Origin: an uncultured Lachnospiraceae bacterium
GTDB lineage: Bacteria; Bacillota; Clostridia; Lachnospirales; Lachnospiraceae
NCBI GenBank assembly: GCA_902779575.1
Contig: CACZBW010000009.1
Coordinates: forward strand, 62,001-126,000
Reading direction: 5' to 3'
Length of the DNA stretch: 64,000 nucleotides
In this document: piece by piece, positions 35,245 through 62,047 of the stretch
How the letters are laid out: each line of letters starts with the position of its first letter
Position numbering within the stretch: position 1 is the first letter of the stretch
Position numbers and translations under genes: made by a program
Notes under the pieces: model-generated
What the model was told of the DNA's origin: nothing
Database searches by the model: none
The model's input: the letters and a program-made list of their open reading frames with translations, nothing else

Positions 35245-35249
35245 TCTGT

Positions 35250-37488: not shown

Positions 37489-37956
37489 ATGAGTTTGGAA
37501 CAGATGGAAGTGCTGCGCGCCGGCGAGGAATGGGCAAGGGCGGGAGCTTATTCGGTACGGATCCAGGGCATGAACAGGCAGCACCACATTTCCCTGAGAG
37601 AAGAATTTGATGAACATGACGGGGATGGCACGAGATATATCGTGCTTCTGGATGAAGGCTATCCGGTGGCGACATGCCGTTTCTATGAGCTTGACAGGGA
37701 ACGGGTCATGATCGGCCGGGTCGTTGTACTTCCCGAATACCGGGGCAGCGGACTGGGCAGGAAGGTTATCCTGGAAGCGGAATCCTGGATCCGCGAGCTG
37801 GGATATACTGCGGCGGAGATTGAGAGCAGAACGGTCGCAACGGGTTTCTATCTGAGACTCGGCTATGAGATCGAAGACGGCAGCGTCGTCCGGAGCGGGG
37901 TCTTTGAATGCGTCCGGATGCGGAAAGACCTGAAGAAGGATCAAAGAGAATTATAG
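37489..37956 (+). CDS. GNAT-family N-acetyltransferase
   Basis: 155 residues, normal for GNAT. The acetyl-CoA-binding P-loop region reads VVLPEYRGSGLGRKVI near residues 80-95, followed by EAESWIRELGYTAAEIES and the C-terminal GFYLRLGYEIEDG. GNATs move an acetyl group from acetyl-CoA to an amine; the acceptor is unknown. The short N-terminal part resembles ElaA/YjcF-type members. It is the first gene after the sugar locus terminator and shares that locus's leader repeat. Confidence 0.85.
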   Translation: MSLEQMEVLRAGEEWARAGAYSVRIQGMNRQHHISLREEFDEHDGDGTRYIVLLDEGYPVATCRFYELDRERVMIGRVVVLPEYRGSGLGRKVILEAESWIRELGYTAAEIESRTVATGFYLRLGYEIEDGSVVRSGVFECVRMRKDLKKDQREL

Positions 37957-39016: not shown

Positions 39017-39532
39017 ATGCGTTCCATTCAAATTCAGAAAATCAGTATAACGGACCTGGAGACAGACGTTGTTGTAAATGCGGCAAATGAAGGCCTGTGG
39101 GCCGGCGGCGGCGTATGCGGCGCGATCTTCAGGGCAGCGGGACACTGGCAGCTGCAGGACGCCTGTGACAGAATCGGTCACTGCGATACGGGGGCGGCTG
39201 TTATCACGCCGGGGTTTCAGCTTAAGGCAAAATATATCATTCATGCTGTCGGTCCCGTCTGGAGAGACGGAAAGCATAATGAACCGGAACTGCTGTACGG
39301 CGCATACCGGAAGTCGCTTGAACTGGCAGCGGAAAACGGCTGCTCCTCCATCGGCTTTCCGCTCATTTCTGCCGGAATCTTCGGATATCCTGCGGAGCAG
39401 GCATGGCAGACGGCGATACAGGCATGCCGTGATTTTCTGAATAAAGGAAATGAGATCGACATTGTATTTGCGGTTCTTGACGATGCCATGCTGAGGAAGG
39501 GGCAGCGGATCCTGGAGAATACCGGAAGGTGA
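39017..39532 (+). CDS. Macrodomain protein (ADP-ribose binding or hydrolysing)
   Basis: A 171-residue protein made of a single macrodomain. VVNAANEGLWAGGGVCGAIFRAAG carries the ADP-ribose-binding Asn-Ala-Ala-Asn and glycine loop, and SIGFPLISAGIFGYP the second loop; both match O-acetyl-ADP-ribose deacetylase/YmdB-type proteins. It would bind or hydrolyse ADP-ribose derivatives. GGGAGG precedes the ATG. Its neighbours give no hint of an ADP-ribosylating toxin or a sirtuin partner. Confidence 0.88.
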   Translation: MRSIQIQKISITDLETDVVVNAANEGLWAGGGVCGAIFRAAGHWQLQDACDRIGHCDTGAAVITPGFQLKAKYIIHAVGPVWRDGKHNEPELLYGAYRKSLELAAENGCSSIGFPLISAGIFGYPAEQAWQTAIQACRDFLNKGNEIDIVFAVLDDAMLRKGQRILENTGR

Positions 39533-39556
39533 CAGTTCACTGACGGACCAGACAAA

Positions 39557-39601
39557 AAAGGACGTTTCTTTTCTGCATTTCGCAGTAAGGAAACGTCCTT
39601 T
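39557..39601. terminator. Bidirectional terminator between convergent genes
   Basis: AAAGGACGTTTC (39557-39568) pairs with GAAACGTCCTTT (39590-39601), with an inner CTGC/GCAG stem. An A run precedes it (T run for the minus strand). It separates the macrodomain gene from the end of the minus-strand sugar island. Confidence 0.8.
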
Positions 39602-39651: not shown

Positions 39652-40815
39652 TTATAACACAACGGTTCTGTTCTGCTCTGCGGCCAGATAGGCGATCTGC
39701 GTAAGTTCCGCGGCTTCTCTGGCGATCTGAAAGCCTGACAGGGGCTCCCGCCCCTCCAGCATACATTCCAGGAAATCCTGGATCTCGCCATAATAGCCCC
39801 GGATGATCTCTTCACTCACGATGGCCCTGTGATGGCCGATGTTGCTGTCGTTCTTCTCAACGAAATGCTCGTCCTCAATGCCTTTATCGTCCGAGAAGTA
39901 GACGTCCAGCAGATCCGCCTGGGAAAAGCGGCATTTGAATACGGCATCGTTGCCGTACATATCGAAGGTCGTCACGGATTCACCGACAAAGGTGTCGCCC
40001 GAGGTCAGGGTGGCTTTGGAACCGTCACGGAAGGTGAGCACCACATGCGCCCAGTCTTCGGTATCCACCGGGTCCGCTTCGATGTAGCGGTTCTCGATGT
40101 GCTTCATAACCTGCGAACAGTCGCAGGCGACGGACTTCACGCCGTATTCCAGCCCCCTGCTCTCCATTTCCAGGCGCTTGGCATAGATCGCTGCGCTCAG
40201 CGGATGGATGAGATTGCGCGCAAGGGTCCCTCCGCCGCTTTGTTCCCAGTATTTTACGTAGGATGCCGGGGAACCTTTATGTCCGGCGATGCTGTCCATC
40301 TGCACAAGCGTTGTGCCTTTGCTGCGCATCAGCTCGCAGGCGCGGATAAAGGCAGGCGCGTAGATCCAGTTTTCCGCGTAGAAGAAGCGCCGCCCGGTGA
40401 CGTTCATGACCGCTTCGAGTTCATCGATGGTCTTTCTGACTTCCCGCAGCATCTTCTCTTTTGAGACATTTCCGACTGGCTTTTTATCGTCAGGCATACC
40501 GAAATAACCCGTCAGGGGTTTCTCACAGATGACATCCTTCCCGGCACGCATTGCCTTCACGATCATATCCGCGTGCAGAAATGGAGGAGTAGTGATGTCA
40601 ATGAGATCGACTTCCGGGTCCCGCAGGATCTCCCCGAAATCGCGGGTACAGCTTTCGAAGCGGAACTGCTGCGCGAATTCAGAGAGATTCTCCTCCAGGC
40701 CGCATACCGTCTTGCGGCGTACGTCGATCCCGTAGACGTGGTTGTATGCCCGTGCATGCATTCTGCCCGCCCAGCCGATTCCGACCAGGGCGACGCAGAT
40801 TGTTTTATTATTCAT
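39652..40815 (-). CDS. Gfo/Idh/MocA-family oxidoreductase A, last gene of the TRAP island
   Basis: 387 residues with an N-terminal Rossmann fold (VALVGIGWAGRMHARAYNHV) and the family's CEKPLTG motif, in which the Lys is the usual catalytic base. The C-terminal half is the alpha/beta substrate domain with NLIHPLSAAIY and GSKATLTSGDTFVGES. These enzymes oxidise or reduce sugar ring carbons with NAD(P), often tightly bound. It is longer than the two other Gfo enzymes of the island because of an insertion near residues 110-130 (FGMPDDKKPVGNVSKEKM). It lies 73 bases after the MDR gene, the widest gap among the metabolic genes, with a decayed repeat between. Substrate unknown. Confidence 0.88.
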   Translation of the reverse strand: MNNKTICVALVGIGWAGRMHARAYNHVYGIDVRRKTVCGLEENLSEFAQQFRFESCTRDFGEILRDPEVDLIDITTPPFLHADMIVKAMRAGKDVICEKPLTGYFGMPDDKKPVGNVSKEKMLREVRKTIDELEAVMNVTGRRFFYAENWIYAPAFIRACELMRSKGTTLVQMDSIAGHKGSPASYVKYWEQSGGGTLARNLIHPLSAAIYAKRLEMESRGLEYGVKSVACDCSQVMKHIENRYIEADPVDTEDWAHVVLTFRDGSKATLTSGDTFVGESVTTFDMYGNDAVFKCRFSQADLLDVYFSDDKGIEDEHFVEKNDSNIGHHRAIVSEEIIRGYYGEIQDFLECMLEGREPLSGFQIAREAAELTQIAYLAAEQNRTVVL

Positions 40816-40825
40816 AATGATCCTT

Positions 40826-40921
40826 AAAACTTGATAACTTTCTCAAAAGCTGTAGACGGCTTTGACAGATTCTCCCGGCCGGGCAGTCTCAAAACTTGAT
40901 AACGGCCTTGATGGCTTCTCC
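40826..40921. repeat. Degenerate repeats of the 3' end of the MDR dehydrogenase gene
   Basis: The last bases of the MDR gene plus its stop (40887-40921) recur at 40841-40875 with 26 of 35 positions identical, including the TTTTGAGA at the stop codon. A further 13-base exact piece of the same tail (AAAACTTGATAAC, 40891-40903) recurs at 40826-40838. This looks like the remnant of a former tandem duplication or of a deleted paralogous gene. Confidence 0.65.
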
Positions 40922-41920
40922 CGATTTTGCGTCCTCAAATGCCTGAAGGGCATCTTTAAAGTCGTAAACACGGATGATCTTTGCAAGATCATCTTTCATC
41001 AGGGACATCATGTGCACTACCGCGGAGCTTCCGTCCGTTCTCAGGAACGCGCCCGGGCCCTTTGCTCCGACAATGGTCAGTTCCCTGCGGAAAATGGGAA
41101 GCGGGTCAAACTCCGGGATTGTGCCGTGATAGACGCTTGCCGCCACGACCCGGCCGCCGTACCGTGCCGTCGTCATGGCCTGGGACAGGACGGAAGGAGT
41201 ACCCGTTGCCTCAATTACCACGTCCGCGCCGTGCTCGCCGCAGATTTCGCGGATCACCGCCATCCCTGCTTCGTCGTTGCCTACTACTGCGTCAAAAATA
41301 CCGGTCTGACGGGCCTTTTCCTGGCGGGCAGGACGGCGTCCCACGCAGATGATGGCTCCCGCGCCGAGATGCCTGAGGATAATCGCCGCGATGATACCCA
41401 TAGCGCCCAGGCCGTAGACGACCACATTGTCACCGGGTTTGATATTCGCCTTCATGGCGATCTGATAGGCGCAGTTGGTGGGCTCCATCAGCGCGGCGGT
41501 GACATCGTCTATGGCATCGGGAACAGGGCTTAAAAAGCTGTAATCCGGCGTGCTGCGCGCCAGAGTGTATTCGGTGAAACCGCCGGGAGTAATGGCGTCG
41601 TTCAGGCTGCGGCAGTATTCCGATAGACCGTTCAGGCAGTACCAGCAGGTACCGCAGGTGCGGGAAACCTCACTGGCCACTCTCATACCGGGCTCGATCT
41701 TCACGCTGCCTTTTGAAACTTCTGTGACGACGCCGGAGAATTCGTGTCCGAAATACAGTTCTTTGCTCACATCCCTTTTTCCGCTGAGCAGTGCCAGGTC
41801 GCTTCCGCAGATCCCGCAGGCGCTGACGTGTACCTTTACCATACCGTCCTGAAGGGCGATCTCGTCTTCAGGATATCTCAATTCCAGCTTACCGCCGGCA
41901 AGCAGTGCGATTTTCTTCAT
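40889..41920 (-). CDS. Zinc-dependent medium-chain dehydrogenase (sorbitol/threonine dehydrogenase-like)
   Basis: 343 residues. Catalytic-zinc ligands are Cys35 (SACGICGSD) and His59-Glu60 (FGHEF); four structural-zinc cysteines lie in RTCGTCWYCLNGLSEYC; the NAD-binding loop is GLGAMGIIAA. This is the polyol/threonine dehydrogenase layout. In this island it probably oxidises a hydroxyl of a polyol or sugar acid. It starts two bases after the stop of the upstream epimerase gene, with GGGGGA as ribosome binding site. Confidence 0.9.
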   Translation of the reverse strand: MKKIALLAGGKLELRYPEDEIALQDGMVKVHVSACGICGSDLALLSGKRDVSKELYFGHEFSGVVTEVSKGSVKIEPGMRVASEVSRTCGTCWYCLNGLSEYCRSLNDAITPGGFTEYTLARSTPDYSFLSPVPDAIDDVTAALMEPTNCAYQIAMKANIKPGDNVVVYGLGAMGIIAAIILRHLGAGAIICVGRRPARQEKARQTGIFDAVVGNDEAGMAVIREICGEHGADVVIEATGTPSVLSQAMTTARYGGRVVAASVYHGTIPEFDPLPIFRRELTIVGAKGPGAFLRTDGSSAVVHMMSLMKDDLAKIIRVYDFKDALQAFEDAKSGEAIKAVIKF

Positions 41921-41922
41921 CT

Positions 41923-42705
41923 TCAGATCCCCCTTATGCAGGTGTCCAGCAGCTCCCGGGCGTCTTTTCCCGCGGCCTGCCAGTCGTCGGGAACGTCAGC
42001 TTCAATGGTCAGCGTGCCGTCGTAGTCTTTCAGCCGGTCAAAGAATGACTGGTAATTATATCCGTCTCCCAGCTTCGGCCAGCGTCTCTCGGGCCAGGAC
42101 AGCGGAAAGTCGACGTGGATGTGTTTAATGATATCGCGGTATTTCACCAGGTCGTCAAAACTTTCACCGGACCACACAAAGTGGCGGAGATCCGCCATGA
42201 CGAACAGGTTCGGCCTGTCTGTAAGTTCTATTACCCGCGCCGCCTCGGGTACGGTGTTCATATAGTTGGAATACTTCGGCCCCAGGGGCTCGATCAGAAT
42301 CCGCTGGCCCTGCCCGCCGGCGATGTCGCAGAGCATCCGCAGGAAATCCACGAACACATGCTCGCGGGAGAGACTGTCTTCATCGATCAGCCAGCGGGCC
42401 TTTCCGTTGCCGAAAAGAATGTTTTTGATGCCCGCTTTCGCGCATTTCGCGCAGGAGGAGCGGACATAGGCTTCGAGGCTGGATACCTGGAAACCCGGAA
42501 CAAAGAATGTCGGCTCCGTGATGGGCAGGATGCGGGCTCCGTTGGGGATGTCGAATGCCGTCTCCTTAACATGGGCAAGGAAGCTGTCGAACTCCTTATC
42601 GCCCAGGGCTTCGATCTCCGGCATGTCCAGCTCGGCGTAGTCGAAACCCGCACGCTTTATTTCATCGTAATCTTTGATAAATCCAAATCCACCCAGCTTA
42701 ATCAT
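41923..42705 (-). CDS. Sugar phosphate isomerase/epimerase-family TIM-barrel protein A
   Basis: 260 residues from ATG 42705. I take this start because GGGAGGG lies six bases ahead; the in-frame ATG six bases earlier abuts that site. The start also overlaps the upstream kinase stop (ATGA). The AP-endonuclease-2-like barrel has acidic metal ligands in ILIEPLGPKYSNYMN, ADLRHFVWSGES, HIHVDFPLSW and LTIEADVP. Members include tagatose epimerases, IolE-type dehydratases and newer 3-keto-glycoside-cleaving lyases. The substrate is unknown; the company of three Gfo/Idh enzymes makes ketosugar chemistry likely. Confidence 0.85.
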   Translation of the reverse strand: MIKLGGFGFIKDYDEIKRAGFDYAELDMPEIEALGDKEFDSFLAHVKETAFDIPNGARILPITEPTFFVPGFQVSSLEAYVRSSCAKCAKAGIKNILFGNGKARWLIDEDSLSREHVFVDFLRMLCDIAGGQGQRILIEPLGPKYSNYMNTVPEAARVIELTDRPNLFVMADLRHFVWSGESFDDLVKYRDIIKHIHVDFPLSWPERRWPKLGDGYNYQSFFDRLKDYDGTLTIEADVPDDWQAAGKDARELLDTCIRGI

Positions 42706-43706
42706 CTGCATCCCTCCCTGAGCACGTCCAGAACGGAAGCGTCGAAGCCCTGATAGTTTCGTTCACGCATCAGCGCCTGCACCTCGTCAAGGACCGGCAG
42801 GCTGTTGATGGCGCCCATGCGGGACACAGTGATTGCCGCGGTATGGCTGGCAAAATCCAGTGCCTGCGCCTGGGGCAGCCCGGCTGACAGCGCCGTGCAG
42901 AAGGCAGCCACGAAAGAATCTCCGGCGGCGGTGGGGTCTGCCACATGGGGCATCTTTACGCAGGGCGTATGATGAATGCCGTCCTGTCCCGCGATCACCG
43001 AACCGTTGCCGCCCATGGTGATGATGAGGTTCTGAACGCCTCTGTCATGAAAGGCCTTAGCCACAATTGCCACATCGTCAAAATTGATCCCGTTCTCCAC
43101 ATTGATCTCATGTCCGGCCAGCAGCGCCGCTTCATGCTCGTTGGGAGAGAGAAAGGCGGCACATTCGAGAAGACCGTCGGACATGGGCGCTGCGGGGGCG
43201 GGGTTGATCATCACCGGAACGCTGGCGTCATGGGCCCAGCGGGCCACGGTCTCCACTACAGGCATCGGCAGCTCAAACTGCATGATGACCATGTCGTAAG
43301 AAGCAATCCCCTCCCGGAGCCAGGAAAGCTCCTCCGCAGTAATGGTGAAGTTCGATCCGGGGCATACCGTAATACGGTTCTGCGTGCCTGTTTCGCTGAC
43401 TTCCAGCTGGATCATGGCCACACCGGTAGACTCGTTTTCATCCGTCAGCACGCGGGAAACATCCACTCCGGATTCCTGCGCCACAGCCAGCAGAGCCTTT
43501 CCGAAATCGTCCTTTCCGACTTTACCGGCCATAGTGACTTCAGCGCCCAGACGGGCGCACTGTACGGCCTGGTTCAGGCCCTTTCCGCCCGGCGCGGTCT
43601 GAAACTTCATTCCGATCACTGTTTCACCGGAATTGGGAACTCTCTTCGCCGAGGCGGTCAGATCCATGTTCAGGCTGCCGACTACCAGTATCTTCGGTCG
43701 CTTCAT
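42702..43706 (-). CDS. Ribokinase-like PfkB-family sugar kinase
   Basis: 334 residues. The N-terminal NMDLTASAKRVPNSGE and GGKGLNQAVQCARLGA match ribokinase (GGKGANQA). The C-terminal DPTAAGDSFVAAFCTALS holds the anion hole and catalytic Asp. It phosphorylates a sugar or keto-sugar acid with ATP; in this setting the substrate could be a pentose, a 2-keto-3-deoxy acid or another product of the island, so I do not name it RbsK. It overlaps its upstream neighbour's stop by four bases. Confidence 0.88.
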   Translation of the reverse strand: MKRPKILVVGSLNMDLTASAKRVPNSGETVIGMKFQTAPGGKGLNQAVQCARLGAEVTMAGKVGKDDFGKALLAVAQESGVDVSRVLTDENESTGVAMIQLEVSETGTQNRITVCPGSNFTITAEELSWLREGIASYDMVIMQFELPMPVVETVARWAHDASVPVMINPAPAAPMSDGLLECAAFLSPNEHEAALLAGHEINVENGINFDDVAIVAKAFHDRGVQNLIITMGGNGSVIAGQDGIHHTPCVKMPHVADPTAAGDSFVAAFCTALSAGLPQAQALDFASHTAAITVSRMGAINSLPVLDEVQALMRERNYQGFDASVLDVLREGCR

Positions 43707-44683
43707 TTTTTTGTCCTCTCTGCAGCCGCGTTCATGTCATCCAGAATGCGGCGGGTTGTAAGCATCTCCGGCAGCGCGGCTCTCGGCCTGCGGCCGCAGA
43801 CAAAGTCTTCAAGAGATGCGGCGGCAAATTTGGGATAATATACGTCGCTGTCGGTGCTCAGCGGGATGCGCACGACTTCTTTGCCGTACTCCCGGGCTTC
43901 CAGGCAGTTGTCCGCAAGAATATAATAGCCGTTTTCGGTGACGATGGTCCAGCGGTTTTCCCGTTTGATGCCGTCCTCCATCGGGTAGGCGTAGCCGGTC
44001 TCCAGAGTAAGCGACGCGCCGCTGGAGAGCCTCAGCAGCGAAGACGCGTAAGTCTCGATGTCATATTCTCCGTACTGATATACCGAAGCCAGCACATCGG
44101 CACCGTCGGAATCCGTAAGGTGCAGCGCCATATCAATAAAGTGGACGCCCAGGTTGGTCATGCAGCCGCCGCCCGCGGTATCCGCATGGAGCATCCACGG
44201 CGAGGTATCCAGGTAGCGGGAGGGCGGACCGGCGATGAAGCGGTAGGACATATGGATGATCTTTCCGCTGAGAAGTTCCTCCTTGAGCTGGGCGACGGTA
44301 TCGGAATAACGCCAGACAAAGGGAATGGCGCAGAAGGCGCGGGCTTTCTCAGCCGCGGCGATGATTTCGTCCACATCCTCCGCCCGCATGCCCATGGGCT
44401 TTTCCATGGTAAACGGCAGCCCCCGGGCGATGAGTTCCAGGGCCATCTCCTTCATATCACAGTGGCGGGCAAAAGCAAATACGAAATCCGGCTTCACCTC
44501 GTCCAGAAGCTTTCTCCAGTCCGTGTAGCAGGGGCAGTTCAGCTGCCCCGCGAAACGCTGCGCGATCTCAGGACTTGCGTCACTGACAGCGACGACCGAG
44601 TTTTCCGGCAGACCCGGAAAATAGAGCGGAACATGCCAGTGGCTGACGCCCAGAAACGCGATTCTCAGTTCATTTACAGTCAT
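43703..44683 (-). CDS. Gfo/Idh/MocA-family oxidoreductase B
   Basis: 326 residues. I start at ATG 44683, preceded by AAGGAGG, instead of an in-frame ATG 45 bases upstream. The fold opens IAFLGVSHWHVPLYF, less canonical than GxGxxG, with the EKPMG motif near residue 100. GGGCMTNLGVHFIDMALHL holds the conserved active-site His region. NAD(P)-dependent oxidation or reduction of a sugar or inositol-like ring is expected. It lies between a third Gfo gene and the kinase gene, and its stop overlaps the kinase start by four bases. Confidence 0.86.
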   Translation of the reverse strand: MTVNELRIAFLGVSHWHVPLYFPGLPENSVVAVSDASPEIAQRFAGQLNCPCYTDWRKLLDEVKPDFVFAFARHCDMKEMALELIARGLPFTMEKPMGMRAEDVDEIIAAAEKARAFCAIPFVWRYSDTVAQLKEELLSGKIIHMSYRFIAGPPSRYLDTSPWMLHADTAGGGCMTNLGVHFIDMALHLTDSDGADVLASVYQYGEYDIETYASSLLRLSSGASLTLETGYAYPMEDGIKRENRWTIVTENGYYILADNCLEAREYGKEVVRIPLSTDSDVYYPKFAAASLEDFVCGRRPRAALPEMLTTRRILDDMNAAAERTKK

Positions 44684-44696
44684 TGCTTCTGCCTCC

Positions 44697-45641
44697 TTAT
44701 TCCATGCCCGGAAGTCCCGCGCTGACAAGGATCCGGTTCAGGAGCTCATGGGTCTTATAAGCGTCCTGGGGGCTGGTGAGCGGCGTGGTATCATTGCGGA
44801 TGCAGTCAAAGAAATGGCGGATGGCGTAGCTGAATCCCAGCTTATCCTCGGACTTGGCCCAGCCCATTGCAAGGGGGGTCAGCTCCGTGGTATGACGCTG
44901 CGCATTGTCTACAACCGTCAGGCTCTCCGGCATATGCACCAGCACCGTACGGTTCAGGCCGTGCATCTCGATGCTCTCTTCCCACTGGCCGGCGCTGCGG
45001 TCGGCAATGAGGATGCCCGAGGATCCGCTTTCAAATTCAATCTGTGCGGTGGTAAAGGTTTCATAGTCCCTGTCGGTATATTTTGAGAGAGCTTTCACGT
45101 CCTTTGCTTCCCCGCAGAAATAGCGCATCAGGTCCACCATATGTACGGCATTTTCCAGTGTCGCGTGATATTCGGTCTGGGGACGGTTTTTCTGGGCGAT
45201 GATAACGTCCGGCATGGAGCCGCCCCACGCTTCCTTCGCCTGGGTGATCACCGGCGCGTAACGTCTGTTGAATCCGATCATCAGCTTCCTGCCGGTCTTT
45301 TCAGCCAGTTCGCAGACCATGGAGCAGTCACGAAGGGTGGTGGCCATAGGCTTTTCGCAGAAAGTATGTACGCCGTGGTTCATGAGGAAGGAGACCTGCT
45401 CGGCGTGGACGGCCTTGGGGGTCAGCACGAAAGCGCAGTCCAGACCCAGGTCCACAAGTTCTTCAATTGTCTGTACCGCGTGCTGCGCGCCGAAGGATTT
45501 GGCGGCGCGGACGGCGTTCTCATAATTCTTTGCCATCACGCCCACAAATTCGATGTCCTCGGTCTGTGCCAGCACGGGCAGATAGTTGTTTTTGGAGACA
45601 TAACCGGTGCCGATGACACCTACGCGAAGCTTATCAGCCAT
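44697..45641 (-). CDS. Gfo/Idh/MocA-family oxidoreductase C
   Basis: 314 residues from ATG 45641 (AAGGAGG ahead), not the longer reading from 45725. The Rossmann motif is GVIGTGYVSKNNYLPVL and the catalytic Lys lies in FCEKPMATT. HMVDLMRYFCGEAKDVKAL is the conserved second-domain His segment. Like its two relatives it would act on a sugar ring carbon. It overlaps the aldolase gene by eight bases, so translation is coupled, and it precedes Gfo B by 13 bases. The three enzymes differ enough that they probably catalyse separate steps. Confidence 0.88.
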   Translation of the reverse strand: MADKLRVGVIGTGYVSKNNYLPVLAQTEDIEFVGVMAKNYENAVRAAKSFGAQHAVQTIEELVDLGLDCAFVLTPKAVHAEQVSFLMNHGVHTFCEKPMATTLRDCSMVCELAEKTGRKLMIGFNRRYAPVITQAKEAWGGSMPDVIIAQKNRPQTEYHATLENAVHMVDLMRYFCGEAKDVKALSKYTDRDYETFTTAQIEFESGSSGILIADRSAGQWEESIEMHGLNRTVLVHMPESLTVVDNAQRHTTELTPLAMGWAKSEDKLGFSYAIRHFFDCIRNDTTPLTSPQDAYKTHELLNRILVSAGLPGME

Positions 45642-46548
45642 TGATCTTTTCCTCCTTGCAGTATTCTTCCCAGATATCTGTGAGCTTCTGAACCTCGTCA
45701 TCCGTGAGCGGACGCAGCGGTGCACGGCAGGCGTCGCACTGGATCACGCCGCGCAGCTTCAGGAGGGTCTTCAGGGCCGGGATGCCGGGAATGGCAGCCA
45801 GTTTTCTGTCCGTATCGACGATCTGCTTCTGGGTGGCCATCGCGCCTTCCAGGTCGCCTTCGCAATACTGTTTATACATCCGGGTGAAGCGCTCACAGAA
45901 CAGGGCGCCGGGACCGCTGACTTCGCCGACGCCGCCGATGGTAAGGCAGGGGACAAAGAGGCTGTCGCAGCCGATCAGCAGATCGGGGCGGCGGTCACAG
46001 GCAAGCATGTAGTCCTCGAGACGCATGAGGTCGGGTTTGGAGAACTTGATTCCTTTGATGTTGGGGAATGCCTTCAGCAGACGGGCCAGGAGGGCCGGAC
46101 TCACGTCATTGCCGGTACAGCCCGGAATATTATAGATATAGACCGGGAAATCCTCAGGCAGCGGAGCGACGACGGCGCTGAAATACCGGAACAGTCCTTC
46201 TTCATCCATTGTGAAGAAAGCAGGCGTCATGACGCCGATGCCGTCCGCGCCGATCTTTACCGCGTGCTGCGCGTGGCTGGCGGCTTCTTCGGTGGTCATG
46301 GCACCGCACTGGATAAATACGGGCACCCGGCCGTTGCTTACTTTCACAAAAATCTCGGCGATCTTTTCCCGTTCTTCTTTTGTCAGCAGCAGGCTTTCGC
46401 CGTTTGTGCCGTTGGGATAAAGGCAGTTGACGCCTGACTGTACCAGATATTCGGCAAAGTCTTCCACACCTTTATAGTCAATGCTTCCATCCTGATTCAT
46501 AGGGGTAATCGCTGCGATTACCACACCCTGCATACGCTTGTTATCCAT
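45634..46548 (-). CDS. DapA-family (N-acetylneuraminate lyase-type) aldolase or dehydratase
   Basis: 304 residues, a class I TIM-barrel lyase. The Schiff-base Lys168 stands in NIKGIKFS and the proton-transferring Tyr139 in VYIYNIPG; PNGTNGESLLLT matches the GTxGE substrate loop. No lysine-biosynthesis genes are near, so I take it as a catabolic member that cleaves or dehydrates a 2-keto(-3-deoxy) sugar acid to pyruvate and an aldehyde, or a related keto acid. It follows a hairpin and an operator-like site and may have its own promoter. Confidence 0.87.
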   Translation of the reverse strand: MDNKRMQGVVIAAITPMNQDGSIDYKGVEDFAEYLVQSGVNCLYPNGTNGESLLLTKEEREKIAEIFVKVSNGRVPVFIQCGAMTTEEAASHAQHAVKIGADGIGVMTPAFFTMDEEGLFRYFSAVVAPLPEDFPVYIYNIPGCTGNDVSPALLARLLKAFPNIKGIKFSKPDLMRLEDYMLACDRRPDLLIGCDSLFVPCLTIGGVGEVSGPGALFCERFTRMYKQYCEGDLEGAMATQKQIVDTDRKLAAIPGIPALKTLLKLRGVIQCDACRAPLRPLTDDEVQKLTDIWEEYCKEEKING

Positions 46549-46606
46549 TATAAACCCTCTCTGTACTTTCTAAGTCTGAAATTCCAAAATGAATGTCAGG
46601 TTATCG

Positions 46607-46620
46607 TGTAATCGTTTTCA
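46607..46620. promoter_or_regulatory. Candidate internal operator before the aldolase gene
   Basis: TGTAATCGTTTTCA resembles operator O1 (TGTAATCGATTACA) in 12 of 14 positions but has lost symmetry in its right half. It lies 59 bases upstream of the aldolase start. Confidence 0.4.
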
Positions 46621-46634
46621 TCTCTGTTAAAATC

Positions 46635-46671
46635 AGCGCCCGACGATCACTGATATGAGTCGCCGGGCACT
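46635..46671 (-). terminator. Attenuator-like hairpin after dctP
   Basis: On the minus strand AGTGCCCGGCGA pairs with TCGTCGGGCGCT over 12 bp including two G-U pairs, followed by GATTTT. The weak T run suggests partial termination, leaving the binding-protein gene more highly transcribed than the enzymes downstream. Confidence 0.55.
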
Positions 46672-46690
46672 GTGAATGGCTTAATACGGA

Positions 46691-47677
46691 TCAGCCGCGG
46701 ACTTCCAGAAGCAGATTATAGAGCTCAACCTGTTCGGGAGTGCCGTTGCTTGCGAAATCGTCACGCACGGACTGGGTGGCTTCGATGAACGGAGCTTTGT
46801 CGATTTCATTTACTTCGCAGCCTGCTTCGGCGATTGTCTTGAGGGCAGCTTCTTCGGCATCAGGCCAGATCTCTTCGTTCCAGACACGGGTATACTCTTC
46901 GCCTGCCTTCAGGACGCCTTCCTGCTCTTCAGGTGTCAGCATGTTGAACCAGGTGGCGCTGACCAGGATCGGGTCGGGCATGATGAACTGCTCAGTCAGA
47001 GAATAGTATTTGCCGACATTTTCCATGGAGTTTGCTACGATAACAGGAGCGGAATTCTCAAGGCCGTCGATGGTGCCCTGCTCCAGACCGGAGTAGCACT
47101 CAGACCATGCCATTGCCACCGGAGCGCCGCCCATTGCTGCGATACTGTCTACCAGAACGGGGTCCTGGATGACGCGGATGGTCATGCCCTTCAGGTCGTC
47201 AGGCGTATTGATCGCCTGCTTGGTATTCAGGATGTTGCGGGAACCGAGGTTCTGCCATGCAATCGCCATCATGCCGTTCTCTTCCAGATCGTTCTCCAGA
47301 ACCTCTTTTACTTTCTCAGAGGTGATGACGTCGATCGCTTCCTGGCCGCTGTTCCACAGATAGGGCAGGGAGAAGGTGGACCAGATGTCAGAATATGCGG
47401 AGATGGCGGTCAGGGACAGCTCGGTAGCTTCGATGGTGCCCATGCGGAGACCTTCCATGGATTCGGTGTTTCCGCCGAGGGTGGAAGCGTAGTAGATTTC
47501 CACTTCAACGCTGCCGTCGGTATATTCCTTTACCAGATCGGCAAACTTCTGGGCACCGTCAGCCTGAGTGCCTGCGCTGGGGAAGGTAACGGCGTATTTC
47601 ATGGTGGCTCCGAAGCCGGTGGTGGACAGGGCCATAGTCATAGCTGCTGCTGCGGTGAGTACCAGGATCTTCTTCAT
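46691..47677 (-). CDS. dctP: TRAP transporter solute-binding protein, DctP family
   Basis: 328 residues from ATG 47677, which has GGAGG seven bases ahead. The signal peptide MKKILVLTAAAAMTMALSTT is cleaved near GFG-AT and there is no lipobox. DLKGMTIRVIQDP contains the conserved Arg that salt-bridges a substrate carboxylate, and ECYSGLEQGTIDGLEN is the DctP signature. It captures an organic acid, probably a sugar acid, and delivers it to DctQM. It is separated from the membrane subunits by an epimerase gene. Confidence 0.92.
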   Translation of the reverse strand: MKKILVLTAAAAMTMALSTTGFGATMKYAVTFPSAGTQADGAQKFADLVKEYTDGSVEVEIYYASTLGGNTESMEGLRMGTIEATELSLTAISAYSDIWSTFSLPYLWNSGQEAIDVITSEKVKEVLENDLEENGMMAIAWQNLGSRNILNTKQAINTPDDLKGMTIRVIQDPVLVDSIAAMGGAPVAMAWSECYSGLEQGTIDGLENSAPVIVANSMENVGKYYSLTEQFIMPDPILVSATWFNMLTPEEQEGVLKAGEEYTRVWNEEIWPDAEEAALKTIAEAGCEVNEIDKAPFIEATQSVRDDFASNGTPEQVELYNLLLEVRG

Positions 47678-47798
47678 GATAATTTCCTCCATTTCATGAA
47701 AATATGTGGTGGGTTGTAAATGAATACTGCTTATATTTATGTTTCAAAACAGTGCTGCCGGAATGAGCAGCCGCACTATTTGATAACGGTGTTCCGAT

Positions 47799-48689
47799 TT
47801 ACAGTGTGATGCTCTTGAGATAGTCTGCGGATTTCTTCATCCCGATGGACGCGTCCGGAATGTCGTCCGGATGCCAGCGGCGCTCGTACTCCAGGGACAG
47901 CCAGCCGTCGTAGCCGTCGGCCTTCATGCGCCTGAGGATTTCCGGCCATTCTATGATGCCTTCGCCCACGATGCGGGTGATGACGTTGCGGGAATCCTCA
48001 TCCGGATGGGACACATCGTCATTGCCTACGAATGCCCGGTTCTGGCCCTTGAATACCAGATCCTTCACGTGCATATGTCCCACGAGGCCCTTCTGGATCT
48101 CAGTTGCTTCCTGCCAGTCTTCGTTGCCGGTGAACGTCAGGTTTGCCTGATCATAGAGGATCTTCACATTGGGGTGGCCGATCTCAAGGATGGTGTCCGC
48201 GGTCTGGCGGGCAGACATGGTCATGGTGTTGAAATGGTTCTCTATGACCAGCGTCACGCTTTTTTTCGCAGCCATGTCGCCCAGGGTTCTCATGGACTCC
48301 ACAAGCTTTGCGTGTTTCTCATCCCAGTGATCGTTCTCTTCTCCGGGGGCAATGTTGCCGCCGTAAATGCGGATGTACTTCGCGCCGAAGAATTCACAGT
48401 AGTCGATGACCTTCCCGACCGCCCGGATCTCTGACTGCCGTACTTCCTCGTCAAGGCTGTTGAATCGGGAGTTATAGGGAGTCAGCGCGATGATTTCAAT
48501 GTGATTGGCTCCGGCGCATTCCCTGACCTGCTCAAGCAGTTCCTGCGGGCAGTCGACCGGCAGACCGGATCTGTAATTGTCCTGGATGACGATCTCCGCT
48601 CCGTCCAGGCCGATGCGGTGAAAGAGTTCGATCGCTTCCGGAACCGTATATTCCGGGGTGCCCATAGTGTGTCCTGCAATCTTATACAT
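47799..48689 (-). CDS. Sugar phosphate isomerase/epimerase-family TIM-barrel protein B
   Basis: 296 residues. The metal site of the AP-endonuclease-2/xylose-isomerase-like barrel is complete: Glu in LVIENHF, Asp in ILYDQANL, His in HMHVKDLVF and Glu in WLSLEYE. That matches ketose 3-epimerases and IolE/lyase-type members. It lies between dctM and dctP, an unusual place for an enzyme and a sign that it acts on the transported compound. It is only distantly similar to the second epimerase at 41923. Confidence 0.88.
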   Translation of the reverse strand: MYKIAGHTMGTPEYTVPEAIELFHRIGLDGAEIVIQDNYRSGLPVDCPQELLEQVRECAGANHIEIIALTPYNSRFNSLDEEVRQSEIRAVGKVIDYCEFFGAKYIRIYGGNIAPGEENDHWDEKHAKLVESMRTLGDMAAKKSVTLVIENHFNTMTMSARQTADTILEIGHPNVKILYDQANLTFTGNEDWQEATEIQKGLVGHMHVKDLVFKGQNRAFVGNDDVSHPDEDSRNVITRIVGEGIIEWPEILRRMKADGYDGWLSLEYERRWHPDDIPDASIGMKKSADYLKSITL

Positions 48690-48701
48690 ATTTCAGACCT
48701 C

Positions 48702-50018
48702 CTAGATGGCGTAGCCCATGGCCTGGGGGAACCAGGTGCACAGCGCGGGGATGTAGGTAACCAGCAGCAGTACGATCAGTTCGGTAAAGATATAGGGCAG
48801 GGCGCCTTTGACGCCGCGTTCCACGGGGATGTCCGCTATCTTGCAGCCGATGAACAGGCAGGCTCCCAGAGGAGGCGTGCCGGCACCGATGATCAGATTC
48901 AGTACCATGATGACGCCGAAGTGCAGGGTGCTGATCCCCATGGCGGCAGCGACAGGCATAAGGATGGGGGCCAGCAGGATGACTGCGGCGGATCCGTCCA
49001 TGAACATGCCCATGATCAGCAGTACGATGTTGACAAGCAGCAGGAACACATACTTGTTGCTGGTGAGGGAAAGGATGGCGTTGGCTACGATGGTGGACAT
49101 CTGCAGCGTCGCCAGTGCGTAGCTGAAGATCTTCGCGCAGGCAATGATCAGAAGTACCGTTGCGGACATCGTGGCGCTCTTGAGCAGCATCGGGTACAGG
49201 TCTTTCACCTTCACGTTCCTGGTAATGAACAGGCCTACGATCAGGCTGTAGAACACAGCGGCCGCGCCTGCTTCAGTGGCAGTGAAGACGCCGCCCATGA
49301 TTCCGCCGAATACGATGATGGGCATTCCAAGGGGAAGCAGTCCTTCTTTAATGATGCGGAGGCGTTCTTCCTTCGTATAACGTCCGGTACGGCGGGGGAA
49401 ATGATACTTGCGGTCACGGATCAGCACCATGCCCATCAGGAAGAAGCCAATCATCAGTCCCGGGATGACGCCTGCCATGAAGAGGCCGCCGATGGAGCAG
49501 CCCACCGCTACGCCGTACACCACCATCATGATGCTGGGCGGGATGATCGGGCCGCAGGTGGAAGAGGTAATGGTGACGCCCACGGCTTCCTCCGGGCTGT
49601 ATCCTTCGTCTACCATGGCCGGGATCAGAAGGCCGCCGATGCAGGAGGTATCAGCCTGGCAGGAACCGGTGATGCCGCCGAAGAACATGCTGGAAACGAT
49701 GTTTGCCTGGGCAAGGGAAGCGGGGAGCCTGCCGATCAACAGCTGGGCAAATGCCACCAGCTTCTTGGTGATGCCTCCTTTATTCATCAGCTCGCCGGCA
49801 AACACGTAGAAGGGGATGGCAAGCAGTGAAATAGCTGTAGCTCCGTTGTAGATAGAGGAAGGAATGACGATCCAGGAGAGCGCCGCTCCTTTGGTAACGG
49901 TCAGGGCGATCAGGCTGATGGTGCCCGCAAGGCCCAGGCTGGCGTAGACCGGCACACCAAAGATGATGAGCAGAAAGGCTGCGACAACCAGAAGAAGTAT
50001 CAGAAGTCCGGTATTCAT
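48702..50018 (-). CDS. dctM: TRAP transporter large membrane subunit, DctM family
   Basis: 438 residues and about 12 membrane segments, full length. IFGVPVYASLGLAG, FYVFAGELMNKGGITKKL, SCQADTSCIGGLLIPAM and GAGTPPLGACLFIG are family landmarks. It forms the sodium-driven transport channel with DctQ. The first bases overlap the dctQ stop (ATGA). Confidence 0.93.
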   Translation of the reverse strand: MNTGLLILLLVVAAFLLIIFGVPVYASLGLAGTISLIALTVTKGAALSWIVIPSSIYNGATAISLLAIPFYVFAGELMNKGGITKKLVAFAQLLIGRLPASLAQANIVSSMFFGGITGSCQADTSCIGGLLIPAMVDEGYSPEEAVGVTITSSTCGPIIPPSIMMVVYGVAVGCSIGGLFMAGVIPGLMIGFFLMGMVLIRDRKYHFPRRTGRYTKEERLRIIKEGLLPLGMPIIVFGGIMGGVFTATEAGAAAVFYSLIVGLFITRNVKVKDLYPMLLKSATMSATVLLIIACAKIFSYALATLQMSTIVANAILSLTSNKYVFLLLVNIVLLIMGMFMDGSAAVILLAPILMPVAAAMGISTLHFGVIMVLNLIIGAGTPPLGACLFIGCKIADIPVERGVKGALPYIFTELIVLLLVTYIPALCTWFPQAMGYAI

Positions 50019-50539
50019 AAATCTTCCTCCCCTCTGTAGTTTTCCGGATCATACACATCGATGGCCGGACGGGTGATTCTGTGCCTGATGGTCTTTACAA
50101 ATTCATACAGCATAAAGCAGGAACCGACGGCCAGTACCATATAGCAGTACTTCATGGGGATCCGCAGGTTGGTGGTCTTAAGCTTGCCCGCGCTGTTCAC
50201 AAAGATGAAGCTGGAATACACGAAGATCACCAGGAAAGCCAGGGTCGCCAGAGTAGTGATCACGCGAACCACCGTACGGGGACCGGCAGGCAGGGAATCC
50301 GACGTACCGGTCAGTTCCGTATGCTCGCCGGTGCGGATCGCTCTCGCGCCTCCGAACATGATGCATACCACAAGCAGGTTGATGATGACTTCATCGCTCC
50401 ATGGAATACCGCTTCTGAGAACGTACCGAAAGAACACCTGCACGATCTCTACGGTCAGTATGACGGCCATGGGAGCGGCGCAGAGTACGTTTTCAATGAT
50501 CTCAACGATCCGGTCGAAAACGCTGAATGCTGACTTCAT
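50015..50539 (-). CDS. dctQ: TRAP transporter small membrane subunit, DctQ family
   Basis: 174 residues with four membrane segments. VFFRYVLRSGIPWSDEV is the typical DctQ helix-loop motif with FGGARAIRTGEHTEL after it. First gene of the island on the minus strand; its promoter and operators lie in the next 100 bases. Confidence 0.9.
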   Translation of the reverse strand: MKSAFSVFDRIVEIIENVLCAAPMAVILTVEIVQVFFRYVLRSGIPWSDEVIINLLVVCIMFGGARAIRTGEHTELTGTSDSLPAGPRTVVRVITTLATLAFLVIFVYSSFIFVNSAGKLKTTNLRIPMKYCYMVLAVGSCFMLYEFVKTIRHRITRPAIDVYDPENYRGEEDL

Positions 50540-50594
50540 TTTGATCAGACACCTCTCTTTCTTTATTAAATGATGTTGTCGTGAACGCTTTCGG

Positions 50595-50600
50595 ATTATA
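50595..50600 (-). promoter_or_regulatory. -10 element of the TRAP operon promoter
   Basis: On the minus strand this is TATAAT. The expected -35 position, 17-18 bp upstream, falls within or beside operator O1 and is a poor TTGACA match, typical of a promoter blocked by a bound repressor. Confidence 0.55.
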
Positions 50601-50608
50601 TCGGAACA

Positions 50609-50622
50609 TGTAATCGATTACA
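50609..50622. promoter_or_regulatory. Operator O1
   Basis: TGTAATCGATTACA, a perfect 14-bp palindrome eight bases upstream of the minus-strand -10 box. Its central CG and symmetrical arms fit LacI-family sites; it also resembles a CcpA cre site, which cannot be excluded. Confidence 0.75.
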
Positions 50623-50673
50623 CAGAACCGGAAAAAATAATGCGGGATCGATTGTTCCGTCCGTCGCTTCTTG

Positions 50674-50687
50674 TGTAATAGATTACA
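50674..50687. promoter_or_regulatory. Operator O2
   Basis: TGTAATAGATTACA, one base from O1 and 65 bp away from it centre to centre, about six helical turns. Confidence 0.7.
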
Positions 50688-50766
50688 TGAACATCAGGTG
50701 CCTGTCAATGTACAGAGTGTACATATTAGCAAGCACAAATTTGTGCAATATTCATTAAATGCGTCC

Positions 50767-50796
50767 TTGATTGACGCATAAACCCCATGATACAAT
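50767..50796 (+). promoter_or_regulatory. Promoter of the LacI-type regulator gene
   Basis: TTGATT (50767-50772) and TACAAT (50791-50796) with 18 bp spacing. Operators O3 and O4 follow right at and after the likely start point, suggesting autorepression. Confidence 0.5.
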
Positions 50797-50806
50797 CATG
50801 TTAGGA

Positions 50807-50820
50807 TGTAAAAGATTACA
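50807..50820. promoter_or_regulatory. Operator O3
   Basis: TGTAAAAGATTACA; same TGTAA/TTACA arms as O1, asymmetric centre. It covers the expected transcription start of the regulator gene. Confidence 0.7.
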
Positions 50821-50834
50821 CTATATGAAGAGGA

Positions 50835-50848
50835 TGTAACTGTTTACA
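50835..50848. promoter_or_regulatory. Operator O4
   Basis: TGTAACTGTTTACA; same arms except one base, 28 bp from O3. Confidence 0.65.
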
Positions 50849-51002
50849 TACTCCCGGGCAGAGGCGTTTGCTTCTGAACGCAGTAGGAACCCGGTTGTAC
50901 AGAGGCCGGCCGGCGGCCGTCGGCCGTCCGATAACAGTTTGTGAAACAGGAGATTCTGTTATAAACTGAAAGCTGTCTTTAATCATTCAGGAGGTAAAAT
51001 CC

Positions 51003-52013
51003 ATGGCGACCATTCAGGATGTCGTGAAACTGTCCGGCGTTTCGGTAGCGACAGTCTCGAGAGTCATACATAACAGCCCCAACGTACTCCCGGCCACCCG
51101 GGAAAAAGTACTGGCTGCGATCCGTGAGCTGGATTACCACCCCAACAGGCTTGCGCAGCAGTTCCGGACACAGCGCACAAAGTGCGTACTGGTGCTTCTT
51201 CCCCGTCTCGGGGACAGTTTTTATTCGGAAATACTCAAGGGCATAGAGGAAGTTGCTTCAGCAGCGGGATATCACATTTTCATCGCCAATACCGGCAATA
51301 ATCCCGAGATGGCAAAGTTCTATTATGAAGCCCTGATTCAGAAACAGAACGACGGCATTATCGATTTTTCCGCCTGCCTGCCCAGGGAATATATGGAGGA
51401 AATCGCCGGCCAGAACCCCGTGGTGGTGGCCTGCCGTTATCTGAGCAATTCGAACGTCCCGAATGTGACGATAGACAATCTGGCCGCGTCCCGCGAAATG
51501 ACGGAGTATATGCTGAATCTCGGTCACCGGCGCATCGCCTATATCGGCGGCAATACGGAGCTCGCCCTTTACCGCTCCCGCCTTTATGGATATCGCCAGG
51601 CGCTGGAAGAGCGCGGAATTCCTGCGGAAGAAACGATCATATACACTGCCGACCCGGATATCCAGGGCGGCTATGACGCCGCCATGCAGCTGCTGCGCTC
51701 CGGGGAAAAGTTTACCGCCATCGTCACAAGCGGCGATACCCTGGCGGTGGGCGCCATAAAGGCGCTGCAGGAACGGAAGCTGCAGGTACCGGAGGAGATT
51801 GCGGTCTGCGGCTTCGACGATATTGAGATTTCTTCCCTGCTCAGCCCCACCCTGACCACCATCCGCCAGCCGCGCGGCCTGATCGGGCGGCATGCCATGG
51901 AAAAACTGCTGGGACTCATTTCCGGCAAGGATGAAAATCTTTCCGAGCAGATCGTGCTGCCTTATGAGCTCGTAATCCGCGCCAGCAGCGGGAAATTCAG
52001 AAACAACAAATAA
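51003..52013 (+). CDS. LacI-family transcriptional regulator of the TRAP island
   Basis: 336 residues. The helix-turn-helix with hinge is IQDVVKLSGVSVATVSRVIHN and LPATREKVLAAIRELDYHPN. The effector domain contains GHRRIAYIGG, the ligand-binding signature VCGFDDIEISSLLSPTLTTIRQP and the usual length. It lies divergent from the TRAP operon. It probably represses both directions through the palindromes at 50609-50848 and is released by a sugar or sugar acid from the pathway. AGGAGG precedes the ATG. Confidence 0.92.
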   Translation: MATIQDVVKLSGVSVATVSRVIHNSPNVLPATREKVLAAIRELDYHPNRLAQQFRTQRTKCVLVLLPRLGDSFYSEILKGIEEVASAAGYHIFIANTGNNPEMAKFYYEALIQKQNDGIIDFSACLPREYMEEIAGQNPVVVACRYLSNSNVPNVTIDNLAASREMTEYMLNLGHRRIAYIGGNTELALYRSRLYGYRQALEERGIPAEETIIYTADPDIQGGYDAAMQLLRSGEKFTAIVTSGDTLAVGAIKALQERKLQVPEEIAVCGFDDIEISSLLSPTLTTIRQPRGLIGRHAMEKLLGLISGKDENLSEQIVLPYELVIRASSGKFRNNK

Positions 52014-52182: not shown

Positions 52183-52425
52183 ATGAACGAAAAGCAGGAT
52201 AAAAAAGTCAGGGCGGAACGACCGACTTCCCCTGAGCAGATTGACGATTATATCAGAGTGACGACACCCGGCATGTGGGTTCTGGTCTCAGGCATGCTGG
52301 TGCTGCTTCTGGCCGGCCTGATCTGGGCTTATGCCGGCAGGATTGAGAAGAGGGATATGACTCCGGACGGTCAGGTAACTACGGAGTATGTTGCCCCGGC
52401 GTCTTTTCTGACGGACGCTGAATGA
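52183..52425 (+). CDS. Truncated HlyD-like accessory protein of an NHLM export system
   Basis: An 80-residue protein: acidic/basic start, the segment PTSPEQIDDYIRVTTPGMWV, one membrane helix (VLVSGMLVLLLAGLIWAYA) and a 25-residue outer tail. Residues 15-60 closely match the start of NHLM bacteriocin-system HlyD family proteins, which normally continue with a periplasm-like coiled-coil adaptor. Here the adaptor is missing, and the frame ends in ASFLTDAE at the first copy of a 36-bp tandem repeat. GGAG precedes the ATG. It is either a remnant or a small membrane partner in a Gram-positive exporter that needs no adaptor; I favour the second only weakly. Confidence 0.7.
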   Translation: MNEKQDKKVRAERPTSPEQIDDYIRVTTPGMWVLVSGMLVLLLAGLIWAYAGRIEKRDMTPDGQVTTEYVAPASFLTDAE

Positions 52426-52605
52426 GAGATTTCGGTATCTTTTCTGACAGACGCTGAATAGGAGATTTCGGTATCTTTTCTGACAGACGCTGAACGGGAG
52501 ATTTCGGTATCTTTTCCGACGGACGCTGAATAAGAGATTTCGGTATCTTATCTGACGGACGCTGGATGGGAGATTTCCGGCATCCTTTCTGAAGGATGCT
52601 GAAAT
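52399..52605 (+). repeat. 36-bp tandem repeat across the end of the HlyD-like gene
   Basis: Four clear units (52426-52461, 52462-52497, 52498-52533, 52534-52569), a degenerate fifth (52570-52605) and a partial copy inside the gene end (52399-52425). The unit core is GAGATTTCGGTATCTTTTCT and GACRGACGCTGAA plus a variable triplet. Because 36 is divisible by three, the gene's frame continues through every unit; the variable triplet is TGA, TAG, CGG, TAA, TGG in order. Conceptually the units read EISVSFLTDAE-stop. Confidence 0.9.
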
Positions 52606-52666
52606 GACAGCTTTCACGGTACAGAAAGTCTGAGAAACTGCTGCGGACTGCAGCCCGGAGACAAAT

Positions 52667-61936: not shown

Positions 61937-62047
61937 TACGCCCTTTTCTTTCTGCTTATGAAAACTCAGTCACTGCCTGGTCCTGCAGGGCAGCTCTGCC
62001 GGAATATGGAAAAGCAGTGGTTTTAGAATTCATCGGATTTTCATATA

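Follow-up and report, generated by a model that had tools for sequence, protein, structure and literature searches.

A LacI-linked gene island in a Lachnospiraceae bacterium as a candidate catabolic unit for a hexuronate-like sugar acid

Introduction

Among the described systems closest to the locus reported here is the levoglucosan pathway, given in the available parts of its descriptions as LgdA-LgdB1-LgdB2-LgdC (PMC7676230, PMC10066097). Another is that of the glycoside β-eliminases; according to the accessible portion of that report, the O-glycoside eliminase holds its metal through His132, Asp163, His189 and, weakly, Glu233 on strands 5-8 of the barrel, its catalytic His134 is essential, and the C-glycoside eliminases carry Glu instead of His132 (PMC10628242). 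Here we describe an island of eleven minus-strand genes and a divergent lacI gene at positions 39652-52013 of the window, by which we mean the whole stretch of 64,000 nucleotides analysed (positions 62,001 to 126,000 of contig CACZBW010000009.1 of the uncultured Lachnospiraceae bacterium, assembly GCA_902779575.1). The source draft genome, G000, comprises 3,546,291 bases in 75 contigs and is 95.3% complete. We tentatively read the island, with slightly less than even confidence, as a LacI-controlled catabolic unit for a hexuronate-like sugar acid that would proceed via oxidation, elimination, reduction, phosphorylation and cleavage.

Results

Genes were defined by a list of open reading frames (ORFs) and by Pfam family matches, and both agree with the initial annotation of the locus, made from the DNA alone, in finding eleven co-directional genes and a divergent LacI gene. 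In order of transcription the minus-strand genes encode the small and large TRAP membrane subunits DctQ (50015-50539; PF04290, 85 bits) and DctM (48702-50018; PF06808, 380 bits; TIGR00786, 406 bits, above cut-off), the AP_endonuc_2 / xylose-isomerase-like TIM barrel B2 (47799-48689; PF01261, 143 bits), the TRAP solute-binding protein DctP (46691-47692; PF03480, 225 bits), a DHDPS-family aldolase (45634-46548; PF00701, 203 bits), the Gfo/Idh/MocA dehydrogenase GfoA (44697-45641, longest ORF from 45725; PF01408, 90 bits), the Gfo/Idh/MocA protein GfoB (43703-44683, longest ORF from 44728; PF01408/PF22725), the ribokinase-like sugar kinase PfkB (42702-43706; PF00294, 215 bits), a second TIM barrel, B1 (41923-42711; PF01261, 83 bits), a Zn-dependent alcohol dehydrogenase (Zn-ADH; 40889-41920; PF08240/PF00107) as third redox enzyme, and a further Gfo/Idh/MocA protein, GfoC (39652-40815; PF01408, 68 bits). 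The LacI-family regulator lies on the plus strand (51003-52013; PF00356/PF00532). All three TRAP families scored above their Pfam cut-offs. The three Gfo/Idh/MocA proteins, two barrels, three TRAP genes, kinase and DapA-type protein had thus been recognized correctly, while the heading of the initial annotation left out the Zn-ADH. Its description of tight overlaps holds for part of the island: with the chosen starts, four of the ten junctions overlap (by 4, 8, 4 and 10 nt) and three are gaps of 2-13 nt, whereas the remaining three gaps measure 73, 106 and 142 nt. Beyond GfoC, a terminator-like inverted repeat with a T run was recognized by eye on the minus strand (39554-39599), its loop exceeding the limit of 8 of the hairpin search. 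Layout and operators suggest that the island genes are co-transcribed.

An exact pattern search confirmed the four shared palindromes noticed initially, namely operators of the form TGTAAnnnnTTACA at 50609, 50674, 50807 and 50835 (span 50609-50848). Exact TGTAANNNNTTACA occurs at four places in G000, all between dctQ and lacI, whereas the reversed pattern, used as a control, has no occurrence in G000, and ten mononucleotide shuffles of the window contained 0.1 exact operator copies on average. A fifth operator-like site with one mismatch (46607-46620) lies in the 142-nt gap between DctP and DHDPS, upstream of the DHDPS gene; about one such one-mismatch site per window is expected by chance. 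Among 18 loci scanned in other genomes, exact copies were found in ten (L045, L050, L051, L052, L054, L056, L059, L060, L066 and L069), mostly near lacI or where the set begins; in L056 another copy lies apart from the set, at 13663. In the Blautia-named L045 the exact copy is directly upstream of the DHDPS gene (12008), and in L059 a copy lies between lacI and a separate gfoC (2298). The other eight scanned loci (L048, L053, L055, L057 and L061-L064) have no exact copy. This distribution suggests that regulator and regulon are both local. In L060 the LacI match is divided over two overlapping frames (7095-8137).

Relatives of the island were collected by scanning genome contigs with a profile of a three-sequence B2 alignment (the window B2 and two actinobacterial plasmid loci), and the best 80 of 91 relatives were retained. 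GfoA is present in 78 of these 80 loci, and in 75 its gene and that of B2 share a strand with no more than 200 bp between them; GfoA, B2 and GfoB occur together in 72. The full trio is missing in L065, L072, L073, L075, L080, L082, L096 and L113, L065 and L080 being short contigs. By record title, the carriers include Lachnospiraceae, other Clostridia, Succinatimonas, Anaerobiospirillum, Synergistales, a Spirochaetales bacterium, Chloroflexi, Arthrobacter, Streptomyces and others. These labels are submitters' names, many gut carriers being metagenome-assembled genomes (MAGs), and by our own placing from the titles the module spans about six phyla. In a loosely named gut-type group of 28 loci (L045-L071 and L073, including Bacillus sp. 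MRMR6 and a Spirochaetales MAG), many of which end at contig ends, matches of any identity were found to GfoA in 28 loci, GfoB in 26, DHDPS in 24, Zn-ADH in 21, B1 in 19, DctP in 18, DctM in 16, LacI in 15, the kinase in 14, DctQ in 12 and GfoC in 2. A search for the same gene order elsewhere revealed all twelve genes in L059, an Oscillibacter-named MAG, and the order of the window, minus the kinase and as far as the contig end, in L045. Ten of the twelve genes occur in L046 (DctM-DHDPS-GfoA-B2-DctP-GfoB-kinase-B1-ADH-GfoC), but the B2-DctP pair is placed differently in L046 and L059 than in the window and L045. GfoC is an optional part of the module, since it was found in 2 of the 80 loci. 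In sum, the island is a conserved catabolic module under local regulation, with a plausible mechanism class.

Two further features of these loci were seen. In L053, L055, L060 and L063 the module has additional genes for a ROK kinase, a SIS-domain protein, another Gfo protein and another barrel (best model IolE, 50 bits), and all but one of these loci also have a cupin; the assignments come from scans of the L055 copies and, for the other loci, from similarity. A pair of SDR and barrel genes is 87% and 78% alike between Pseudarthrobacter L116 (2414-4191) and Bacillus L070 (18345-20199), far more conserved than the core there (B2 43%, GfoA 44%, GfoB 32%).

The aldolase is exchanged between loci. 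A DHDPS-family protein is found in 27 of the 80 and a KDPG-type Eda in 48, never both; neither is present in five, of which four are contigs of 4-7 kb and the fifth is L094. The Eda of Bacillus L070 scores 186.5 bits against the eda cut-off of 156.05 and also passes the KHG/KDPG subfamily cut-off. Given that these unrelated aldolases, both of the 2-keto-3-deoxy-acid type, replace each other, the exchange suggests that they act on one kind of intermediate, namely a 2-keto-3-deoxy acid, in keeping with the aldol cleavage proposed initially. The gene in the kinase position varies as well. PfkB is present in 15 DHDPS loci and in three loci without DHDPS (L047, L080, L094), 18 in all, and the 48 Eda loci all have in its place a small protein of the P-loop kind (AAA_33 in both copies scanned with Pfam; no NCBIfam match in the one copy scanned), PfkB and this gene never being found in the same locus. 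Carriers other than TRAP include a CitMHS type in L050 (scanned) and L052, a protein of the MHS organic-acid symporter type, found in 38 of the 80 loci (the L116 copy scoring 336 bits, under the cut-off of 443), a peptide-type ABC binding protein in L056 (scanned) and L057 (by clustering), and an NMT1-type binding protein in L073 (scanned) and L072 (by clustering). Several of the alternative carrier types are typical of organic acids; the sugar-type ABC group is not.

Aligning the window B2 with 29 sequences chosen from the 80 loci showed that E150-x-H152, D180, H207 and E267 are invariant in all 30 rows. The AlphaFold model of B2 (pLDDT 92.1) has strands at 146-150, 175-180, 203-208 and 263-266, so that, by sequence position, B2 has E/H-x-H at the end of strand 5 and Asp, His and Glu on strands 6-8. 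In Paenarthrobacter strain LG01, the LgdB1 candidate, chosen by its place between the LgdC and LgdA candidates (L128), has H-P-H at the position of E150-x-H152. B2 is a probable metal-dependent β-eliminase or dehydratase on these motifs, and the oxidation and elimination foreseen in the initial annotation fit both the enzyme families and the metal ligands with E-x-H. The PDB sequence matches of B2 include IolE and AsbF, which we take to be a dehydroshikimate dehydratase, and its best NCBIfam model is IolE (57 bits, cut-off 290); hydratase AtHYD (14% identity in the fold match), YcjR and IolE come at ranks 17, 18 and 25 of the Foldseek list. In B1 the metal ligands and an E-P-L motif are each kept in 21 of 22 rows, the other row being a gap, and by this motif B1 may be placed with the isomerase or epimerase type. 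Since the active-site motifs differ (E-x-H versus E-P-L), B2 and B1 are unlikely to share one job.

For the other enzymes, we compared ORFs whose best island match was the gene in question, at an identity of at least 30% for GfoA and at least 55% for DHDPS; the GfoC rows include five relatives from other contexts. In GfoA the Lys of an EKP motif and the His are kept in 70 of 71 rows and the Asp of the H-x-x-D pair in all 71, and its PDB matches include DgpA. GfoB keeps Lys, His and Asp in 60 of 60 rows and has a GxSHWH motif where the glycine-rich loop belongs (HWH in 59 of 60). In GfoC the second catalytic Asp is replaced by S, T or G in all eight rows. The best NCBIfam model of the Zn-ADH is of the IolM type (157 bits, cut-off 450), and PfkB scores 289.7 bits with TIGR02152, whose cut-off is 299.65. 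The DHDPS rows keep Lys and Tyr in 17 of 17, while the position that we take to correspond to the substrate-binding Arg of DapA is C, A or Y in 17 of 17; this, together with a TIGR00674 (dapA) score of 178.4 bits against a cut-off of 206.15, rules out DapA function.

The acid part of the initially proposed substrate is supported by the transporter. TRAP transporters mostly carry acids, and the structures nearest to DctP include 4pf8, 4ovq, 4xfe, 4x04 and 4x8r, several of which we take to be glucuronate or galacturonate complexes. The best PDB match by both sequence and fold is 4pf8 (32% identity in the fold match), and a profile search ranks 4x8r first. As far as the available text of a study on the D-glucuronate binder STM3169 goes, R150, R170 and N210 are conserved among glucuronate binders, and Asn35, Gln36, Glu74 and Asp237 are shared with Apre_1383 (PMC7660916). 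DctP has R152, R173, N213 and D240 at nearly the same spacing as R150, R170, N210 and D237 of STM3169, a match of spacing only, and Q43 and E80 are possible counterparts of other STM3169 residues. Across an 18-row DctP alignment there is no variation at R152, R173, Q43 or E80 and almost none at D240. These residues are compatible with a hexuronate-like ligand but do not prove one; DctP is probably of the hexuronate-binder type.

Of the matches listed for 18 further members of the genus, only one, in G001, is a near-identical piece of GfoB. The corresponding contig, L038 (G001:C30, 10098-12016), keeps both flanks of the island at 85-97% DNA identity by block, and what remains of the island is the whole kinase gene (97%) together with short 3' remnants of gfoB (86 nt) and lacI (16 nt). 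The simplest reading is that two deletions occurred in G001 and that the island was present in the common ancestor of G000 and G001; we prefer this to an assembly error or another order of events. With B2 as query, G000 was the only genome to give a match among 295 of the order (E at most 1e-30), and again among 398 of the phylum (E at most 1e-25); the module is therefore sporadic in both. Within the order, five further genomes have GfoC relatives (E at most 1e-40) outside such a module, and of these contexts only L036 adds matches to DctM (37%) and LacI (29%). GfoB relatives on an Agrobacterium plasmid and a Paraburkholderia plasmid likewise stand in other gene contexts.

The left flank of the island comprises a GH31 glycosidase (35085-37286), a GNAT acetyltransferase (37489-37953) and, adjoining the island, a macro-domain protein (39017-39529) whose gene was found in 2 of 19 genus genomes (E up to 1e-50). 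Farther left, the adjoining stretches 30540-31957 and 32655-34066, suggested by cross-matches of L038, are about 73% alike in DNA and probably reflect a tandem gene duplication. To the right, an ABC transporter of the peptide/bacteriocin exporter type with an N-terminal C39 peptidase domain (52667-54859) follows lacI, and between the two a 36-bp unit is repeated in 5.9 tandem copies with 84% matches (52402-52615).

Discussion

Observed directly were the genes present, the sites of the operators, the conservation of the module, its motifs and the exchange of aldolases; every reaction, the order of the steps and the class of substrate are what we infer. In the proposed pathway, DctPQM would import the acid and GfoA would oxidize a hydroxyl to a ketone with NAD, which the metal barrel B2 would use to eliminate an adjoining group, be it water, an alcohol or an aglycone. 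GfoB and the Zn-ADH would reduce and B1 isomerize the product to a 2-keto-3-deoxy acid, which the PfkB kinase would phosphorylate and the DHDPS-family aldolase cleave to pyruvate and a triose. With GfoA oxidizing once, GfoB and the Zn-ADH each reducing once and B2 carrying out one elimination, the net change would equal that from a uronate to 2-keto-3-deoxygluconate (KDG), without the use of UxaC, UxuB and UxuA. A bolder version, which we consider possible though improbable on balance, is that GfoA-B2-GfoB forms an undescribed oxidation-elimination-reduction core, distributed over some six phyla. Its substrate would be a modified hexuronic acid, such as a uronate barred from the UxaC/UxuA route by its 4-position or its aglycone, and its product a 2-keto-3-deoxy acid, the transporter, third dehydrogenase, kinase and aldolase being exchanged between lineages.

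Several observations weigh against the proposed pathway. The exchange of aldolases largely tracks taxonomy (Actinobacteria versus gut bacteria), the main cross-over being a single Bacillus, and therefore represents few independent events. The island kinase is ribokinase-like, not KDG-kinase-like, 12 of the 27 DHDPS loci have no PfkB match within their sequence, and the P-loop gene beside Eda would be a kinase by analogy only. B2 and the LgdB1 candidate of LG01 have only 23% identity, and at the head of the Foldseek list of B2 stand the isomerase Art22, UlaE and tagatose epimerases, D-tagatose 3-epimerase included; moreover, IolE-like dehydratases may carry a similar motif, so that E-x-H is no proof of glycoside cleavage. 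Sugar-type ABC parts occur in L066 and L116 (SBP_bac_1) and, judged by a binding protein resembling that of L116, in 17 further loci of 82 searched, and such carriers could indicate a neutral sugar or a glycoside as substrate. A GH78 α-L-rhamnosidase adjoins the core trio in L066 (1082-6742) and L069 (826-3414; GH78 scanned). Two ABC permeases accompany an SBP_bac_1 binding protein in L066, clustering assigns this set to L069 as well, and no TRAP match was found in either locus. N213 of DctP lies outside the conserved columns of the 18-row alignment. Finally, a search of 12 carrier genomes found UxaC in 10 and UxuA in 8; G000 has both, away from the island. Because UxaC and UxuA elsewhere in the genome already give plain glucuronate a route, it is the less likely substrate, and we would rather expect a glucuronide, a modified uronate or some other sugar acid.

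The presence of UxaC and UxuA in G000 is what a glycosidase split over several enzymes would call for, acting on uronic-acid glycosides such as glucuronides or aldobiouronic acids: GfoA would form the 3-keto glycoside, B2 would eliminate the aglycone, a second barrel would hydrate the glycal, GfoB would reduce the product to the free uronate, and the UxaC/UxuA route elsewhere in the genome would finish the pathway. The enzyme families and E/H-x-H are as in the LgdB1 candidate and, in the accessible text on them, the O- and C-glycoside eliminases, and DgpA among the PDB matches of GfoA and AtHYD and YcjR among the fold neighbours of B2 point the same way. We nevertheless consider such a glycosidase rather unlikely, as it gives no job to the kinase or to the aldolase, although one aldolase form is present in 75 of the 80 loci, and B1 has E-P-L in place of an eliminase motif. 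Neither UxaC nor UxuA was found in the genomes of L063 and L066 among the 12 carriers, both being MAGs that may be incomplete. DUF6379, which we assume to be a partner of C-glycoside eliminases, was not found among the 11 island proteins (E up to 1e-3).

Were the substrate a carboxylated cyclitol or a similar ring acid, a route combining inositol-like Gfo oxidation with IolE-type dehydration would account for IolE and IolM as the best NCBIfam models of B2 and the Zn-ADH and for IolE and AsbF among the B2 matches, but the scores are far below the cut-offs and the KDPG-type aldolase of 48 loci suits a straight-chain 2-keto-3-deoxy acid better; we hold this route improbable. There is an equally small chance that the island is a known pathway under another name, such as that of levoglucosan, sialic acid, anhydro-sialic acid or sulfoquinovose, with which it shares enzyme families, TRAP, DapA-type lyase and Gfo together resembling sialic-acid loci. 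The models for LgdA, IolG, IolE, IolM, NanA, KdgD and DapA, however, gave no score above cut-off with the ten island proteins scanned. N-acetylneuraminate lyase, and with it sialic acid, was ruled out by NanA scores of 144.2 against 281 and 116 against 382. LgdA model NF052479 (cut-off 650) gave 77.5 bits for GfoC, 37.6 for GfoB and 56.5 for GfoA; in LG01, by comparison, the match for LgdA, of 753 bits, is at G723:C12:28196-29350, and the island-type Gfo matches are on contig C67, at the coordinates of L087. These separate contigs, together with the low LgdA scores, rule out a levoglucosan locus.

Should the hexuronate-like reading be true, gut and soil bacteria share a second route from an acidic sugar to pyruvate without the textbook isomerase and dehydratase, and Gfo/Idh/MocA proteins, xylose-isomerase-like barrels and DHDPS proteins, families mostly annotated by guess, gain a new function. 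Carriers that are isolates (for example Succinatimonas hippei, L064, Agathobaculum massiliense, L053, and strains of Arthrobacter and Paenarthrobacter) make the question testable. As a whole, the initial interpretation, degradation of a carboxylated glycoside or rare sugar acid, is partly supported. Its remark that this exact gene set is not known as a described pathway agrees with our comparisons, the set matching none of the known pathways checked (levoglucosan, inositol, sialate and KdgD); among the papers listed by searches of openly licensed literature, none describes it in its title or the opening of its abstract, which is weak evidence of absence.

Compared with known systems, the island shares Gfo, barrel and Zn-ADH families with inositol catabolism (IolG, IolE, IolO, IolM), unlike which its proteins score far below the cut-offs (IolG 42-97 against 355, besides the IolE and IolM scores given above). 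Like the classical UxaC-UxuB-UxuA-KdgK-KdgA route it would import a hexuronate, a TRAP type being known for glucuronate from the available part of PMC7660916, and would cut a 2-keto-3-deoxy acid to pyruvate and a triose; in contrast to that route, Pfam and NCBIfam scans found no UxaC, UxuA or UxuB family among the 11 island proteins. With levoglucosan degradation, as far as its descriptions are accessible, the island has in common Gfo/Idh/MocA dehydrogenases paired with xylose-isomerase-like barrels, a logic of oxidation, elimination, hydration and reduction, and, in the Bacillus smithii cluster, a LacI regulator; it differs in having TRAP instead of ABC genes, its own kinase and aldolase, and a Zn-dehydrogenase. 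For the β-eliminase operons for O- and C-glycosides of Agrobacterium and strain PUE, the accessible text gives glucosides as substrates and names no aldolase, kinase or TRAP genes, but like the island they combine Gfo oxidoreductases with two barrels, and like B2 their eliminases have a metal site with the catalytic His two residues past the strand-5 ligand (PMC10628242).

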